Assembly (NCBI GenBank): GCA_022709995.1
Contig: JAKLHU010000001.1
Location: 1-22,363, forward strand
Origin: Verrucomicrobiota bacterium
GTDB taxonomy: Bacteria > Verrucomicrobiota > Lentisphaeria > Oligosphaerales > Oligosphaeraceae
Reading direction: 5' to 3'
Length of the DNA: 22,363 nucleotides
Both the position numbers and the translations under genes were made by a program. The notes beneath the pieces are model-generated. The model saw nothing but the letters and a program-made list of their open reading frames with translations, made no database searches and had not been told where the DNA came from. Each line of letters starts with the position of its first letter. Positions within the stretch are counted from its first letter, which is position 1. Shown piece by piece: positions 15,697 through 22,363 of the stretch.

Positions 15697-17955
15697 CTAC
15701 AAGTTCTTGCTGACCGTCAGGACATTCTGCCCGTCAAGGTATTGATAGTCCACCGCGTCCATGCTCTTCTTGACCAGGTAGATGCCGAGCCCGCCGACTG
15801 GCCGCTCCTCGGCCGGGAGCGTCACGTCCGGCTCCGGCCGGGCCAGCGGATTATAGGGCACGCCGCGGTCGCGGAACTGCAGCACCACCCGCGCCGGCGG
15901 CCCCGGCTCCGGCCAAAACGCGACCGTCGCCTCGCCGGCGCCGGCGGCATACGCATAGCGCGCGATGTTGACGAAAATCTCCTCCGCGGCGACCTGAACC
16001 TGGTTCTGGACCTTCACCGACGCGTTGAGGCCGGCCAGCCGGGCGCCGACAAACTCCTGCAGCGCCTGGACATTCTCGACGGTCGCCGCCAAAACCACCT
16101 CGGCGGCGGCCTCGGCGGCGGCCCCGTGATATTCCAAAGTCAACATGGTAATGTCGTCCGCCTGCTGGGCCCCATCGGCAAAGGCATCGATCGCGGCCTT
16201 GATTCCCGCCAGAATCTGACTGAACGGCGCATTTTCCGGGGTGATCGCCTGCAGGGCCTGGACGAGGCTTTCCTCGCCCCACAGTTGTCCGGCGCTGTTC
16301 TGTGCCTCGGTCACGCCGTCGGTATACAGAACCAGCCGGTCGCCCGGAGTCAAGACAATCTGGTGACTGCGGTAGTTGACGTTATTCATGCCGCCCAGGA
16401 CCAGCCCCGGACGGATACGCAAGTAGTCATAACCGCCCTGGCGGCGCTTCAGAAGCGGCGGATTGTGCCCGGCGTTGACGCACTCCAGGCGGCCGCTGCT
16501 CAATTCCAGAATGCCCATCCAGGCGGTCACGAACATGCCGGCCTCGTTGTTCTCGCAAATCTGCCGGTTGCCCACGGTGAACACCTCGGCCGCCGACAGG
16601 CCCGAGGCGGCCAGATTGTGCAGCAGAGTCTTCGACGTCATCATAAACAAGGCCGCCGGAATGCCCTTGCCGGAAACATCCGCGACGAGAAAACAGACGT
16701 GGTCGGCGTCGATCACCTGGTAGTCGTAAAAATCACCGCCGACTTCCCGGGCCGTGTGCATGACGGCGCCAAGGCTGAACTGGGGATGATCGGGAAAATC
16801 CGGCGACGGGTCCGGCAGCCCCGAGACTTGAATCGCCTGCGCGAATTTCAACTCGGCGTCAATGCGGGCCGCCGTCTCCCGGATGGCGTTTTTCAAGGCC
16901 GCGACGGTGGAGTTGATGCCCTCGGACAAGGCCTTGAACTCGTTCGAGTTCTCGACGTCGACCTTGACTTCGAGGTCGCCGCGGGTGATGAGCTCCAGGG
17001 AGGAATTGACCTCGTAGATGCCGTCGATGACGATCCGCTGGACCAAAATCGACACCAGCACGAAAACAACGATGAAGAGCAGCACATTGACGACGACCAG
17101 CACCCCGATCACGGCGTTGCGGCTGATGTACATTTCATTCTTTGGCAGGATGCCGATGATGCGGTAGCCGTGATGCTCCTGCGCCACCCCGAGGTAGTCG
17201 ATGCCGCCCACCGTGACGTCGAAGCTGCTTTTCCGCAGCAGGGCCGGGCGGTTCAGGCCGGCCGCCATGAGCTCCGACAAGCCAAATTCCGACCAGCTGT
17301 AGCTCAAGACCTCGTGTCCGCGGCAAATCATGATCGAGCCATGGTTGCCGATGCGGAAGCCGGCCGCTATGCCGCGGATGTCGGCCAGCTTGGCCGCCTC
17401 CAGCAGACGCCGCGGGTGATAGCCGATCTGCACGATGCCGGGCGCGTCGCGCCTGGCCACACCGGCATACTGGAACAACTGGTGGTCGATGCCCTTGGGC
17501 TGCGGGTCCTGCACCAGGGCAAAGGCCGGGTCGGTCAGCGCCGGCAGAAACGCGGCCGACTGCGCGGCGCCGGCCATGTCATAGCCTTCGTAGGCCCGCG
17601 GAATCGAGGCGATCAGAATCCCCCGGGCGTCCGAGACGTGCAGCTCGTCGACATCGAGCAGCAGGCGGGTCGACTCCAGGTCATCCGGCGACGACAGCAT
17701 TGCCGGCGACAGCTCCACCAGCCGCGCCAGGGCCCGCGCCTTGCCCAGAGCCATCGTGCTGGTCAGCTCCGTGACCCGCCGGAGATTGTCCTCCATCGTC
17801 GTCAATTGCCGGCGCGCGTCGGCAATTTTCAACCGGATCAACGTGAGGGCATTGTCGCGGGCCTGCCGGGTCTGAATCAGAAAGGAGAAGGCAAAAGTCA
17901 AGGCAAACGCCGAGGCGATGAAAACAAACAGCCATTTCTGAAACGTCTTCCGCAT
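15697..17955 (-). CDS. Membrane sensor SpoIIE/RsbU-type phosphatase with C-terminal RsbW-like kinase domain
   Basis: 752 residues from the ATG at 17955. Layout: TM1 8-28; extracytoplasmic sensor 29-278, Cache-like (ELHVSDARGILIASIP); TM2 281-303; HAMP about 304-355; SpoIIE PP2C domain about 395-608; HATPase about 620-752. Phosphatase metal-site motifs are intact: GGDFYDY (406-412), ADVSGKG (425-431), YTDGVTE (544-550), QADDITML (598-605). The HATPase has an intact N box (AAEEIFVNIARYAY, Asn663), DRGVP (696-700) and GGLGIYLVKK (721-730). By analogy with RsbU and RsbW it should dephosphorylate, and may also phosphorylate, an STAS antagonist in response to an external signal. The STAS gene lies 22 bp upstream, so that is the probable substrate. 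GGAAGGAA (17966-17973) supports this start; an upstream in-frame TTG at 17985 would overlap the STAS gene. Rare pairing of opposing activities in one chain. Confidence 0.92.
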   Translation of the reverse strand: MRKTFQKWLFVFIASAFALTFAFSFLIQTRQARDNALTLIRLKIADARRQLTTMEDNLRRVTELTSTMALGKARALARLVELSPAMLSSPDDLESTRLLLDVDELHVSDARGILIASIPRAYEGYDMAGAAQSAAFLPALTDPAFALVQDPQPKGIDHQLFQYAGVARRDAPGIVQIGYHPRRLLEAAKLADIRGIAAGFRIGNHGSIMICRGHEVLSYSWSEFGLSELMAAGLNRPALLRKSSFDVTVGGIDYLGVAQEHHGYRIIGILPKNEMYISRNAVIGVLVVVNVLLFIVVFVLVSILVQRIVIDGIYEVNSSLELITRGDLEVKVDVENSNEFKALSEGINSTVAALKNAIRETAARIDAELKFAQAIQVSGLPDPSPDFPDHPQFSLGAVMHTAREVGGDFYDYQVIDADHVCFLVADVSGKGIPAALFMMTSKTLLHNLAASGLSAAEVFTVGNRQICENNEAGMFVTAWMGILELSSGRLECVNAGHNPPLLKRRQGGYDYLRIRPGLVLGGMNNVNYRSHQIVLTPGDRLVLYTDGVTEAQNSAGQLWGEESLVQALQAITPENAPFSQILAGIKAAIDAFADGAQQADDITMLTLEYHGAAAEAAAEVVLAATVENVQALQEFVGARLAGLNASVKVQNQVQVAAEEIFVNIARYAYAAGAGEATVAFWPEPGPPARVVLQFRDRGVPYNPLARPEPDVTLPAEERPVGGLGIYLVKKSMDAVDYQYLDGQNVLTVSKNL

Positions 17956-17977
17956 GAGGTCGCCATTCCTTCCGGGT

Positions 17978-18277
17978 TCAGACAAACGTCAGGATGTCCG
18001 TAAAACCCGTCATCTCGAAAACCTCCATCACGGCGTCCGGGACGCCGCGCAGCACCATGGCGCCGTGCCGGCTGCCCATCTGCTTCTGCGCGGCCAGGAT
18101 CACCCGCAGGCCGGCCGACGACACATAGTCGACGGCGGCGAAGTCGAGAATCAGGCTGGTGACGGCGGCGTCAATGGCCTTCAAGTCATGTTCCAAGGCC
18201 GGCGCCGACGTGGTGTCCAGCCGGCCGGCGAGGCTCACCGTGAGCTCCGCGCCGCGCAATTCTTTGCTGATGTTCAT
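17978..18277 (-). CDS. STAS-domain anti-sigma-factor antagonist (RsbV/SpoIIAA-like)
   Basis: 99 residues, the whole being one STAS domain as in SpoIIAA and RsbV. The key motif is LDFAAVDYVSSAGLRVIL (44-61); Ser53/Ser54 is the expected phosphorylation site, preceded by a strand and an acidic residue as usual. In partner switching the unphosphorylated form binds an RsbW-type kinase and frees a sigma factor or another target; phosphorylation by the kinase and removal by a SpoIIE-type phosphatase toggle it. The ATG at 18277 has AAGGG five bases upstream; a TTG at 18292 would add five residues. It lies 20 bp after the ABC-ATPase fusion and 22 bp before the phosphatase, so all three are probably one operon. 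No sigma factor is encoded in the window. Confidence 0.93.
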   Translation of the reverse strand: MNISKELRGAELTVSLAGRLDTTSAPALEHDLKAIDAAVTSLILDFAAVDYVSSAGLRVILAAQKQMGSRHGAMVLRGVPDAVMEVFEMTGFTDILTFV

Positions 18278-18297
18278 GCTGCCCTTGTCCAATCCGG

Positions 18298-19383
18298 TTA
18301 TGATTTCAATTTGAGCCTGAGCTTGTTGCGTTCCCCGCTCCGGGAGTAGTCCGCGTCCCGGGTCAGCCGGCTGATGATCAGGCGCGGCAGTTCGGTCGCC
18401 GCGGCCGTGTCGGCCAAGGGGTCGCCGGCGGCGCCCGCATAGTCGAAGAGGAGTTCGGTGTCGCCCTGCTCGTCGGAACAGCCGACGGCGATCTCGACGC
18501 TCTCCGCCCGCGGGAAAAGCAGCTGGAAGAGCATTTCCTCCACGACCAGCTGCACGTTGCGGACCTGCTTGCGGTTGAGAAGATGCCGCTGGCAGAATTC
18601 CTCCAGCTCGGCGTTGAGGCGAAAGACGTCGAAGTCACGGCCGGTCGCCGTGAACCGGTACAGGCTGATCTTGTTGAGGAAGGCGCGCGTCTTCTCCTGC
18701 TGCGGCGAGGTGAAAATCCGGGCGGGAGGGCCTTCTTCGAAAATCACCCCCTCGTCCATGTAGAAGACACGGGTGGAGACGTCGCGGGCGAACTTCATTT
18801 CATGGGTGACGATCATCATGGTCATGCCCTGCTCGGCCAGCCTGCGGATGACCGCCAGGACTTCGCTGACCATGGTCGGATCCAGCGCCGAGGTCGGCTC
18901 GTCAAACAGGACAATCGACGGGTTCATGGCCAGCGTCCGCGCGATCGCGACGCGCTGCTTCTGTCCGCCGGACAGCTCGTCCGGATACGCCATGGCCTTG
19001 CCCGCCAGGCCGACGGTCTCCAGCAGCGCCATGCCCGCGTCATAGGCCTCCTGGCGGCTTTTCCGCAGCAGCGTCTCCGGCCCGAGCATGATGTTCTCGA
19101 TCACCATCAGATGTGAAAACAGATTGAACGACTGGAACACCATGCCCATCTTCTGGCGCAGCCGGTAGATGTCCGCCGACGACGAGGACAGGTCCACGCC
19201 GTCGACCAGGATCTGCCCGCCGGTCGGCTTTTCCAAGTGGTTCAGGCAGCGCAGAAACGTGCTCTTGCCGGTTCCGGAGGGGCCGATGATGGAGATGATC
19301 TCCCCCTGGCTGATCTCGGCGTTGACGTCGCGCAAGACCACCGTGTCCCCGAACTTCTTCTCCAAGTGCCTGACTGTGATCAT
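18298..19383 (-). CDS. Amino-acid ABC transporter ATPase fused to a degenerate HATPase (RsbW-like) domain
   Basis: 361 residues. Residues 1-245 are a GlnQ/HisP-type ATPase with every motif intact: Walker [10 protein letters not shown] (34-42), Q-loop Gln84, LSGGQ (137-141), Walker B IVLFDE (157-162) and H-loop His194. A normal family member ends near 245. Here 115 more residues align by pattern with the kinase domain at the end of the neighbouring phosphatase: [13 protein letters not shown] (277-289) matches its N box, [11 protein letters not shown] (313-323) its DRGVP box, and [16 protein letters not shown] (331-346) its GGLG box. But the Asn is Gln287, and the DxGxP and GxG signatures are lost, so ATP binding there is doubtful. 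It could bind the STAS protein as a pseudokinase. The ATG at 19383 overlaps the permease stop (ATGA), with GGAGGTGAG just upstream, so translation is coupled. Confidence 0.9.
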
Positions 19384-22363
19384 TTTCTCACCTCCACCTT
19401 CTTCAGCACCCGGGGGCGTTGCCGCGGATCGATGCGCCTTTCCGCCAGCGTCAGCAGCGACGCCAGCAGATACGCGAAGACAAAATAGACCAGCGCCGTC
19501 GCCAGCAAGGGGAAGAACGCCTCGTAGGTCCGGCTGCGGATGATGTCGCTGACCTTGGTTAGATCCTGGATGGCGATGTAGCCGATGACGGAGGTCATTT
19601 TGACGGTGGCGATGACTTCGCCTTTGAACACCGGCAGCACATGCCGGGCCGCCTGCGGCAGCACGATCCGGAAAAACACCTGCAGGCGATGGAAACCAAG
19701 CGCCTCGGCCGCCTCGATCTGCCCGCGGTCGATGGCGTCCACGCCCGCCCGGAACATCTCGGCGGCATAGACGGCGAAGTTGATGGCAAAGGCCAGCACG
19801 GCAATGGCGATGGCATTGACATCGACATGGCCGAAAACGACATAGTACAGAATCATCAGCATAACCAGAATCGGCGTCCCCTGGACGCCGCGGATGAAGG
19901 TCTTGGCCAGAACCACGGCGGCGACATGACGGCTCCGCCGCAACGCGCAGACGCCAGCCCCCAGCACCGTGCCGAGCAAAATGGCCGAGATTGAGACCAG
20001 CACGGTGACGCCCAGCCCGCGCAACACCAGGCGGTAGCGGTCCTCCACCAGGAACGTGCTGACAAAGCTGCTCCGAAACCGTCCGCGCCAAGACGCCCGG
20101 CCGGCGGCCGTCCCTGGCGCCGCCGCGGAATCGTCGCTCATCAAGACCACCACCCCGCCATGGTAATTCGACTCGCTGAACAGCACATTCTGCGCCCGCT
20201 CCGGTGTCATGACAATCCCGCCCACCCCGATGTCCGCCTTGCCGGCGATGATCGCCGGCAGCAACGCCGGAAAATTGACGGTCATGATCTCCAGCCCGCG
20301 CCCCATCTTGCGGGCGATGCGACTGACCATGTCGACGTCAAAGCCAACCGGCTTGCCGTCCTTGATGTAGGAAAACGGCTCCAAGCTCGGGTCCATGACC
20401 AGGCGCAGAACGCCGTTCGGACCGGTGGCGGGCAGCGCCGCCACCACGCGGCGCTTCTCGTCCGCGCCGAACCAGATGGCGTCCAGTTCCGCCAGCGTCC
20501 CATCCGCCCGCAGCGCACGGATGCCCTCGTTGATCTCCCGGCACAAGGCCTCGCTGGCGCGGTTCAGGACAAAGGCATAATCGGCGCTGCTCAGCACCTT
20601 GGGCATGATCCGCAGCCCCGGCGACCGCGCCACGCACAGACGCGCCAGCGGCTCGTCGACGATGACGGCGTCCAGCTTGCCGTTTTTCATGCTCAAGAGC
20701 ATGTCGGCCATCGCATCGTAGTACTCCGGAATGGCGGCGGGAAGATGTTCCTTCTGCAACTGGTCGAACACCGACCCAGTCAACACCCCGACTTTTTTGC
20801 CTGCCAGGCTGACGCCGCTCGGGGCCGACTTCTCGCGCCGGGCCAGGAGATAAATCCCGCCCGTATAGTAGCCTTCCGTGAAATCGACGTTTTTCAGCCG
20901 CTCCGGGGTGATGGACATGCTGCCCCCGACCATGTCGGCCTTGCGCGCCATCAGCGTTTCCAGAAGCCCCCCGAAGCTCGCCGGCGTCGGCTGGAACACC
21001 ATGTTGAGCTCATAGGCGATGCGCGCCGCCAGCTCGACGTCATAGCCCAGTGACCCCCCGTCCGGCCCGACATAGCACATCGGGACGTTGACGTTGTCAT
21101 GATTGAAGCGCAGGACGCCGCCGCTGCCGTCGAAATCGGGACGGTAGTCGAGGGCCGGCATCGCCTTGCCCTCGTCCGAGGCGTTGAACCAGCGCTCCTG
21201 CATGACCTTGAGCGTCCCGTCCGCCTTCAGTTTGCGGATGACGGCGCTGGCCTTCGGCCCGAGCGGATTGCCCTTGGTGATGGCGAAGCCGTACTGGTCG
21301 ACGCACACCGGCTCCGGCACCAAATGCAGGCGCGGAAACTGCGCTTCCAGCAGCCGGCCGACCGGCTCGTCAACGCCGACCGCATCGACCTTGCCGCCCT
21401 CCAGGGCCACAATCATCGACGACAAATCATTGAAGTACTGATGCCGCACCTGCTTGATGCGGCGATCGATATGGAGGTCGAACACCGTCCCCGACAACGA
21501 CGCCACCGTCTTGCCTTGGAACGCGTCCAGAGCCGACGGTTTAGCTGCCAGACGGCCCTTCCTGACCAGAGCGCAAACCCGGGAATCGACGTACGGTTTT
21601 GACAGATGCATGGCGCGCCGTCGTTCCGGCGTGTCGTTCAGGCTGGCGACCAGCAGGTCGATCTTCCCGGCCTCGACCGCCGCCACCAGCGCCTCGAAGG
21701 TCATGGCCGTCACCCGGGCCCGGGCGTTCAGAGCATAAGCCAGGCGGTGAATGAATTCAACGTCAAAGCCGGTCAGCTCGCCGTTGCCGGCGTAAAAGCT
21801 CATCGGCTCGTCAAGTCCGAACGTCCCGACCTGCAAGGTCAGTTCCGGCTGAGCGGCTACCGGCAGAGCCGGCATTTCGACCGCCTGGCCGGACATCCAG
21901 CGCCCGTACATGTTCTGGTACGTGCCGTCGGCCCGATAGGCCGCGATGAAGTCGTTGACTTTGGCCAGAAGCTCAGGCCGCGCCAGCGAAACGCCGACCA
22001 CGATGTTCTGTTCGCCAAGGTCGTCCGGCAGCAGCGCCAGGTCGGGATTCTTGGCGACGACGTATTCGAGGGCGTGGCGGTCGTAGATGTAGGCGTCGAC
22101 CTTGCCGGTCTTGACCGCCACATACGCATCCGCATGCGTCGTCTGATAGCTCAACCGAGCCCGTGGAAACAGCTTTTCGCCGACGGTCATGGCGGCGGCG
22201 CCGGTCGGCAATGCGATGACGTATTCCGGCGCGTTCATCTGCGCGAGCAGGGCCGCCTGCTCGGACTCCAGGCGCTCGATCGCGGCGGGCAGGGTCTCGA
22301 GCTCGCGGGTCTCCTTGTAGCTCAGCTTGATCCGCTCGCCGCGGCGCGTGCCGGGTGGCGGCG
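19380..22363 (-). CDS. Polar amino-acid ABC transporter: tandem substrate-binding domains fused to permease (5' partial, chimeric N-terminus)
   Basis: Open from the window edge to TGA at 19380-19382. Numbering from the internal ATG at 22238: residues 7-115 are the second half of an SBP_bac_3 domain ([33 protein letters not shown]); 132-352 a full second one ([36 protein letters not shown]); 374-592 a full third one ([33 protein letters not shown]); 608-700 only the first lobe of a fourth ([21 protein letters not shown]). Then comes a permease, 720-935, with about five transmembrane helices and the EAA loop [27 protein letters not shown] (838-864), which docks the ATPase. GlnP-like binding-protein/permease fusions are known, but this many modules is unusual. 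The 41 codons before 22238 look like an ABC-F protein, so the real start and signal peptide are not here. The ATPase gene overlaps by 4 bp. Confidence 0.88.
22221..22363 (-). other. ABC-F (Uup-like) coding segment joined in frame to the transporter gene
   Basis: Read on the - strand, the last ~140 bases encode [13 protein letters not shown], then [20 protein letters not shown], then LAQMNAPEY. The KLSYKE-RELE-LP-IE-LE-EQ-AL pattern is the charged helical linker/C-terminal region of Uup-type ABC-F proteins, cytoplasmic ribosome-associated ATPases. After NAPEY (about 22221) the frame switches without a break to [11 protein letters not shown], the start of lobe 2 of a binding domain, skipping lobe 1 and any signal peptide. 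A natural fusion would put a periplasmic module behind a cytoplasmic ATPase, so a chimeric assembly or a rearrangement is more likely. Confidence 0.75.

Follow-up and report, generated by a model that had tools for sequence, protein, structure and literature searches.

What is the output of a partner-switching module whose neighbour is an importer? The question is raised by the window, the whole stretch of 22,363 nt analysed here (GCA_022709995.1, JAKLHU010000001.1), which is the entire contig of a 64%-complete genome. Its minus strand carries a closely packed row of four genes, which encode SBP-permease, ABC ATPase, STAS protein and, last, a membrane sensor. The original prediction had placed them on one strand with a 4-bp overlap and gaps of 20 and 22 bp, and the ORF coordinates agree: the permease stop at 19380 overlaps the ATPase gene (18298-19383) by 4 bp, 20 bp separate the ATPase from the STAS gene (17978-18277), and 22 bp separate the latter from the sensor gene (15697-17955). 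It had also stated that no sigma factor was adjacent, and none was found among the 15 distinct window ORFs scanned. The features are the following.

19380..22238, minus strand: multi-SBP ABC permease of the amino-acid type (P0002), truncated at its 5' end where the contig stops; ORF and Pfam (SBP_bac_3/BPD_transp_1)
21891..22220, minus strand: first SBP half, matching the fold's second half (profile 137-247 of 251); independent canonical SBP profile
20124..20417, minus strand: last SBP half, immediately preceding the permease part and matching the fold's first half (profile 28-126); canonical SBP profile
19425..20045, minus strand: permease transmembrane domain; Pfam
22243..22361, minus strand: ABCF/Uup-like C-terminal domain, in frame, at the contig end; PF16326, 7.5e-12
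18298..19383, minus strand: GlnQ-type ABC ATPase (P0003) with C-terminal RsbW-like domain; ORF, Pfam and TIGRFAM-type models
18301..18666, minus strand: predicted pseudo-RsbW domain (ATPase residues 240-361); AF2 model, PDB matches, lost ATP-site residues
17978..18277, minus strand: RsbV-like STAS protein that retains the phospho-site motif Ser-Ser-Ala-Gly; ORF, Pfam, alignment
15697..17955, minus strand: membrane sensor (P0005) with Cache-like sensor, SpoIIE phosphatase and intact RsbW-type kinase domain; ORF, Pfam
17086..17874, minus strand: Cache-type sensor domain, residues 28-290, as modelled; AF2 model and PDB matches
16129..16707, minus strand: SpoIIE/PP2C phosphatase domain; PF07228, 6.7e-50
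15706..16089, minus strand: RsbW-type kinase domain; HATPase_c_2 (PF13581), 4.4e-18, alignment columns

The next minus-strand genes after the sensor encode, according to Pfam, a beta-lactamase-family protein and an FAD-oxidoreductase. They are not conserved neighbours, since in a related locus (L004) an opposite-strand gene comes after the sensor.

All elements of a partner switch were found: a STAS protein with a conserved serine, a HATPase kinase with an intact site and a SpoIIE/PP2C phosphatase. The STAS protein matched Pfam STAS (6.3e-16) and the antagonist model TIGR00377 (66.6 bits, cut-off 53.45), and its Ser53/Ser54 were invariant in 11/11 aligned rows; the MlaB model NF033618 gave 19.8 bits against a cut-off of 90. 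Kinase and phosphatase, both intact, reside in the sensor protein, the kinase domain retaining N-box Asn, G1 Asp, G2 Gly and ATP lid in the alignment columns; five relatives have a separate RsbW gene. The sensor had been predicted as Cache-HAMP-SpoIIE-HATPase. SpoIIE and HATPase were recovered by Pfam and a Cache-like domain by modelling; the HAMP part was not recovered, as Pfam reported neither Cache nor HAMP on this sensor and found HAMP only in the related sensors of L020 and L037. The AF2 model of residues 28-290 (pLDDT 84.9, from 10 sequences) appears Cache-like and matched sensor domains such as TlpQ, WalK, PscC and Mlp24 in the PDB. An amino-acid ligand was considered for it and not assigned, because the ligands of the matched domains are diverse and an rmsd of about 7-10 was obtained for those matches that cover both Cache lobes.

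The key to the question may lie in the C-terminal domain of the ATPase. Pfam detected ABC_tran (4.3e-35) in this protein and, below threshold, HATPase_c_2 (E 0.008, residues 256-357). This weak call was settled by the structure model, since the AF2 model of the domain (pLDDT 96) has the RsbW fold: among its closest PDB folds were UsfX, SpoIIAB, RsbW and SiaB, and the top-ranking solved structures comprise kinases that were crystallised together with a STAS partner (UsfX-RsfB, SpoIIAB-SpoIIAA, RsbW-RsbV). Sequence searches of the PDB with the ATPase domain and with the window's kinase domain alone returned no match, so that the fold assignment and the mapping of residues depend on the model and on a 9-sequence kinase profile.

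N-box Asn, G1 Asp and G2 Gly were jointly kept in 0/92 ATPase domains as opposed to 43/43 RsbW-type domains, and the ATP lid was deleted in 91/92 and 0/43, respectively. The 43 RsbW-type domains, two of them MATE-attached, were selected by a score of >90 bits against a profile that had been built up from the kinase of the window, a choice by which degenerate kinases are under-sampled; identical, N-containing and short domains were left out of the alignment of kinase-site columns. The G1 Asp was kept in none of 195 ATPase domains and the last G2 Gly in 8/92; the N-box Asn was still there in 101/195. By sequence and model, the domain is thus classified as a pseudokinase of the RsbW fold. It should not phosphorylate STAS, because G1 Asp, last G2 Gly and ATP lid are lost.

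The available text on the RsbW-RsbV crystal structure names Arg23, Asp42, Lys44, Ser48, Glu49 and Tyr118 as RsbW residues in contact with RsbV (PMC7340262). At the corresponding positions of the 195 ATPase domains, Glu49 was Glu in 175, Ser48 was Glu in 172, Lys44 was Gln in 143 and Arg23 was Asn in 119, the mean best-residue frequency across the domain being 48%. The other two of the six positions were poorly conserved (Tyr118, best residue 39/195; Asp42, Asn in 85/195). Of the 120 nearest ATPases listed, 10 are already marked by Pfam as having a HATPase domain, and the names given to such ATPases, where there are any, are generic transporter ATP-binding only.

The importer itself is of the GlnQ/GlnP amino-acid type (PAAT), as it combines a family-3 SBP (TIGR01096, 273 bits, cut-off 256), a HEQRo-type permease (TIGR01726, 53.5 bits, cut-off 42.2) and a GlnQ-type ATPase (GlnQ was the best ATPase model with 300.9 bits, under the equivalog cut-off of 379). 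On the permease, Pfam recognised SBP_bac_3 in four stretches together with BPD_transp_1; a relative in L005, which like L084 belongs to the cultured Oligosphaera ethanolica, measures 997 aa. The last ~120 bases of the contig, in the permease frame, encode the C-terminal domain of an ABCF/Uup-like ATPase (a PF16326-type domain, for which we presume the label Uup). No second copy of the terminal 158 bases was found elsewhere in the organism's own, incomplete genome. Judged from its sequence, this segment is probably a mis-join and not part of the importer system.

The SBP modules are out of register: in profile matches the second half leads and the first half ends, a circular permutation observed in the window (20124-22220), in L005, L020, L022, L033, L054, L205 and L208 and in others. 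The shortest importers of this type consist of second half, first half and then permease. A profile made from 14 stand-alone canonical SBPs gave the permuted order in all 8 domain-bearing ORFs to which it was applied, and complete canonical modules in both of the domain-less ones. Overall, all 65 domain-bearing ORFs with complete 5' end were permuted, with 1-8 units each, as compared with 0/11 fused ORFs beside an intact domain-less ATPase, all 11 of which were canonical (9/11 are 5'-cut). Some operons carry two locus numbers; after deduplication, 64 permuted and 9 canonical ORFs remained. Left out of these counts were three permuted ORFs called domain-less whose ATPase lies beyond the sequence end (L075, L079 and the second of L076), five permuted ORFs without adjacent ATPase, and three domain-bearing 5'-cut ORFs classed 'other', all three ending in the first half. 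The SBP array precedes the permease in 55/65, the permease there following the first half at the SBP hinge; in 10/65 a single chain begins with the permease, continues with the permuted pair and ends with the ATPase. In glutamate receptors, the channel is likewise inserted at the SBP hinge. The array may fold as permuted units or, alternatively, as canonical modules whose ends pair. By eye, the N-termini of the SBP-permeases at L005 5011 and L020 3228 resemble lipoprotein signals (FSGC).

Is the gene row more than a local arrangement? The original prediction had set a neighbourhood search beforehand, and the gene order was indeed found beyond this contig; the linkage recurs across phyla in several orders, in Lentisphaeria/Verrucomicrobiota, Bacteroidales, Clostridia-type Firmicutes and a Coriobacteriales genome. 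A scan of GTDB species genomes yielded 80 loci, 73 of them with the ATPase domain. A STAS domain was present in the flank of 11/73, or of 12 if L004 is counted, where the same four-gene order occurs and the STAS gene is partly masked by N; at the other 61 no STAS was seen in the flank examined, many of these flanks being short. Among the eleven, STAS lies within a longer ORF at a contig end in L022, on the opposite strand in L029 and L041, and 4.8 kb away in L026. On a list of 40 loci, biased in that it was picked after the locus survey had been seen, 11 had STAS in their flanks, where 0.58 were expected from STAS density.

A sample of 194 genomes of the window's phylum, which we take to be Verrucomicrobiota in GTDB, contained 11 ATPases with a domain match of at least 60 bits (matches <60 bits, L100, L103 and L107, and the stand-alone RsbW loci L095-L099, L101, L102 and L104-L106 were left out). 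STAS followed at most 310 bp downstream on the same strand in 7/11 and was not next door in 4/11. As controls served the 30 best-scoring GlnQ-type loci of the same sample. Six carry the domain (L150 weakly) and were set aside, two of the six having STAS within 1.5 kb; of the 24 without the domain, none did (Fisher 5e-5 for 7/11 against 0/24, with related sequences and no phylogenetic correction).

Five of the seven linked loci are five-gene rows (L204-L208) of SBP-permease, ATPase, STAS, separate RsbW and sensor/phosphatase, in which the STAS gene, not the kinase gene, adjoins the ATPase; in L207 a small unannotated ORF separates the two. Elsewhere, the order was phosphatase-RsbW-STAS-permease-ATPase (L020, L037), single-chain permease/SBP/ATPase-phosphatase-RsbW-STAS (L057, L062), STAS-RsbW-permease-ATPase (L010), ATPase-phosphatase-STAS (L209) and, in a Clostridia genome, sensor/kinase-STAS-...-permease-ATPase (L201). 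L012 has sensor-ATPase-RsbW-SBP, with the kinase gene adjoining the ATPase and STAS not seen. That the genes have been joined repeatedly and in varying order speaks for a functional tie, and coupling of the importer with a partner-switch module, as proposed originally, is strongly supported by these genome comparisons.

Domain and STAS also go together where close linkage is absent. In a sample of 245 genomes from the class of Lachnospiraceae bacterium JC7, presumably Clostridia, the ATPase domain occurred in 8/245 and a close STAS (E <= 1e-26) in 28/245. Seven of the 8 domain genomes had such a STAS, compared with 21/237 others (Fisher 9e-7; 6/7 and 7e-6 without the centre genome; no phylogenetic correction). 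Within 1.5-kb flanks, STAS was found at none of 13 Clostridia domain loci, one of which, in G337, is fragmentary and lacks the ABC part; in three of the seven genomes domain and STAS share a contig, 7-17 kb apart. In the phylum sample, STAS at E <= 1e-22 was found in 42/194 genomes, among them 8/11 domain genomes, and was not found at this threshold in the other 3/11. A Bacteroidia sample had the ATPase domain at E <= 1e-12 in 1/198, the centre genome, and a close STAS in 2/198. Because the two co-occur in genomes despite the missing linkage, STAS likely acts in trans there.

We regard it as rather probable that the importer itself is the output of the module. A signal would bind to the Cache-like domain of the sensor and set the balance between its RsbW-type kinase and its SpoIIE-type phosphatase, and with it STAS phosphorylation. 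Unphosphorylated STAS would dock on the ATP-less RsbW-like domain of the ABC ATPase, phosphorylated STAS could not, and docked STAS would alter ATPase activity or assembly and so change transport. The sign of the effect is a guess; activation upon docking would be favored by analogy with MlaB-MlaF and SiaC-SiaD. STAS binding, the effect on transport with its sign, and the ligand are what we infer from the observed gene linkage, folds, intact and lost kinase sites, conservation and co-occurrence. The original prediction let information flow the other way, from transporter state to STAS through the ATPase domain. This direction could not be upheld: since the kinase site of the ATPase domain is lost and intact kinase and phosphatase are in the sensor, a role as receptor, hence output, would fit better than an input of transport state. 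Its remark that the output could be the transporter fares better.

The main rival retains the transporter as input and is, to our mind, unlikely, though a serious contender. Here the pseudokinase domain would pair with the active RsbW kinase and report the transport state, so altering STAS phosphorylation, and the true output would lie elsewhere, for instance in gene expression. Pseudokinase-kinase pairing is a common regulatory scheme. RsbW is described, in the available text, to dimerise through helix 1 and strand 1 (PMC7340262), and an ECF sigma gene near L010 and a RsbW-STAS-RelA_SpoT row in L203 offer other possible outputs. Against this, no sigma factor target was found alongside, either among the scanned window ORFs or among the 10 ORFs scanned beside four of the five five-gene operons (L204 4, L205 1, L206 2, L207 3); it is the STAS gene and not the kinase gene that adjoins the ATPase in these five operons (L012 showing the reverse); and the Glu in contact with the STAS serine is retained despite the lost ATP site.

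Clearly less probable is an action of the module on an unlinked sigma/anti-sigma target, the ATPase domain being merely a structural dimerisation element and the co-location reflecting shared nutrient regulation. STAS, RsbW and SpoIIE do form the classical anti-sigma set, and many domain-bearing relatives lack a linked STAS. The closest solved relatives of the ATPase domain are nevertheless partner-switch kinases, and the linkage recurs in several orders and phyla and was absent from all 24 control ATPases without the domain. We give little credit to direct binding of STAS to the ABC core with an incidental C-terminal domain: MlaB on MlaF is a precedent, with phospho-site Thr52 at the interface according to the available text (PMC7367683), but STAS linkage tracks the C-terminal domain in the phylum sample and the STAS protein scored far under the MlaB cut-off. 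A chance neighbourhood or assembly artefact, for which one could cite the probable mis-join at the contig end, is hardly credible given the same order in L004 and five related operons from other assemblies, and chance co-location was rejected on the two counts given above (7/11 against 0/24; 11/40 against 0.58 expected).

A second transporter family bears on the importer as output. In Acetobacterium dehalogenans (L006) and in L008, phosphatase and RsbW genes lie between a MATE-HATPase_c_2 transporter and the ABC importer on one strand, and further such transporters occur near importers:

L006 1059-2801 and L008 1153-2895: MATE with C-terminal RsbW-like HATPase domain
L030 11717-13468, L044 3062-4852 and L041 10808-12814: MATE-HATPase near importer (HATPase match under cut-off in L041)

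One protein (P0129) unites MATE, HATPase and STAS; its HATPase match is under cut-off and that of its relative P0248 over it. A corresponding fusion of ABC ATPase and STAS was not seen among the best 120 of 124 longer STAS proteins. Where an organism is named, the MATE-HATPase relatives of P0129 belong to Methanobrevibacter, an archaeon and hence without sigma factors. All four MATE-HATPase genomes of the Clostridia sample are among the 28/245 with a close STAS (Fisher 1.4e-4, no phylogenetic correction), in a search with one fragment as query, which will have missed distant copies. The idea that the MATE-attached domains are pseudokinases was rejected, as 11/14 distinct domains keep the three catalytic residues, with lid and G2 start altered; from their sequences they may be active kinases. 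They thus support transporters as STAS partners and not the pseudokinase point. More tentatively, and at somewhat less than even chances, we propose a widespread class of 'switch-tagged' transporters (permuted-SBP ABC importers and MATE) that would be direct partner-switch outputs, their RsbW-like domains reading or writing the phosphorylation of a shared STAS protein. If this is true, sensor phosphatases would set nutrient and efflux traffic without transcription, apparently also in Methanobrevibacter for the MATE type.

Partner switches are known chiefly as sigma-factor controls, but STAS/RsbW/SpoIIE sets without obvious target also occur. With RsbU/RsbV/RsbW and SpoIIE/SpoIIAA/SpoIIAB the present system shares STAS antagonist, HATPase serine kinase with intact site, SpoIIE phosphatase with sensor, and the conserved STAS serine; it differs in that an ABC ATPase with a dead RsbW-like domain stands where the target would be and no sigma factor was found in the scanned window ORFs. 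SiaABCD of Pseudomonas aeruginosa, as far as the source excerpt goes, also has a kinase, a phosphatase and a small antagonist with an enzyme instead of a sigma factor as output, and SiaB is among the closest folds to the ATPase domain. That output is reportedly the diguanylate cyclase SiaD, and a transporter and a pseudokinase receptor domain are said to be absent there.

Among precedents for a STAS protein on an ABC ATPase, MlaFB would by analogy come closest. In the available text, the STAS protein of MlaFEDB sits on the ATPase and its ~25-residue extension, not on an RsbW-like domain, a phosphomimetic at the MlaB STAS site weakens MlaF binding, the authors raise phosphoregulation as an open possibility, and no kinase or phosphatase is named (PMC7367683). 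The same text mentions C-terminal ATPase domains of MetNI, ModBC and MalFGK as thought to gate transport on ligand or protein binding (PMC7367683). GlnPQ-type importers resemble ours in tandem SBDs fused to the permease and a GlnQ-type ATPase, as excerpted (PMC8025302), and differ in that here the SBP array is permuted with 1-8 units, not in canonical order, and the ATPase has an extra domain. The SBDs of GlnPQ-type importers are canonical. The domains of MetNI, ModBC and MalFGK are, to our knowledge, ferredoxin-like or TOBE and not RsbW-like, and we know of none co-encoded with a STAS/kinase/phosphatase set.

Among the matches listed from the open-access literature (titles and starts of abstracts, subscription papers and bioRxiv lying outside), we found neither such a system nor a permuted SBP array, and the available part of a review of STAS-only proteins holds no occurrence of 'ABC transport' or 'MlaB' (PMC8256260). 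The parts are known; their wiring and a dead-kinase receptor on an importer appear undescribed. Should the reading of the importer as output be right, orphan STAS/RsbW/SpoIIE modules would gain an output, an importer ATPase physically tagged with a kinase-dead RsbW, which would bear on the question raised by MlaB, whether STAS control of ABC transporters is phosphoregulated. With kinase, phosphatase, STAS and transporter in one operon, it would also allow the post-translational control of nutrient uptake to be studied in a compact system that can be reconstituted.

Some further observations concern the neighbours. Purine-related genes lie near three of the five five-gene operons: a xanthine/uracil permease 44 bp upstream on the same strand (L205 307-2001), an adenine deaminase, likewise on the same strand, 12 bp downstream (L206 5827-7509) and, further away, a HIUase (L204 10539-11237). 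Given these neighbours, the importer may take up something other than a simple amino acid. Fusions of STAS with an APH-type phosphotransferase were common among the longer STAS relatives, among the matches listed (L201 7820-9563, L121 4360-5958, P0126-P0245); in L201 such a fusion, an HD_4 protein and a 5'-nucleotidase lie between the sensor-STAS pair and the importer. A 407-aa protein without Pfam match adjoins the STAS gene in L202 (2322-3545) and resembles, by eye, two degenerate HATPase repeats. The ECF sigma gene of L010 (10181-10783, Formimonas) lies 1.1 kb downstream of the domain-bearing ATPase with one ORF between. In L203 (17611-19486), RsbW, STAS and a RelA_SpoT-domain protein stand in a row on one strand, and from this gene order the last of them is possibly another partner-switch output.
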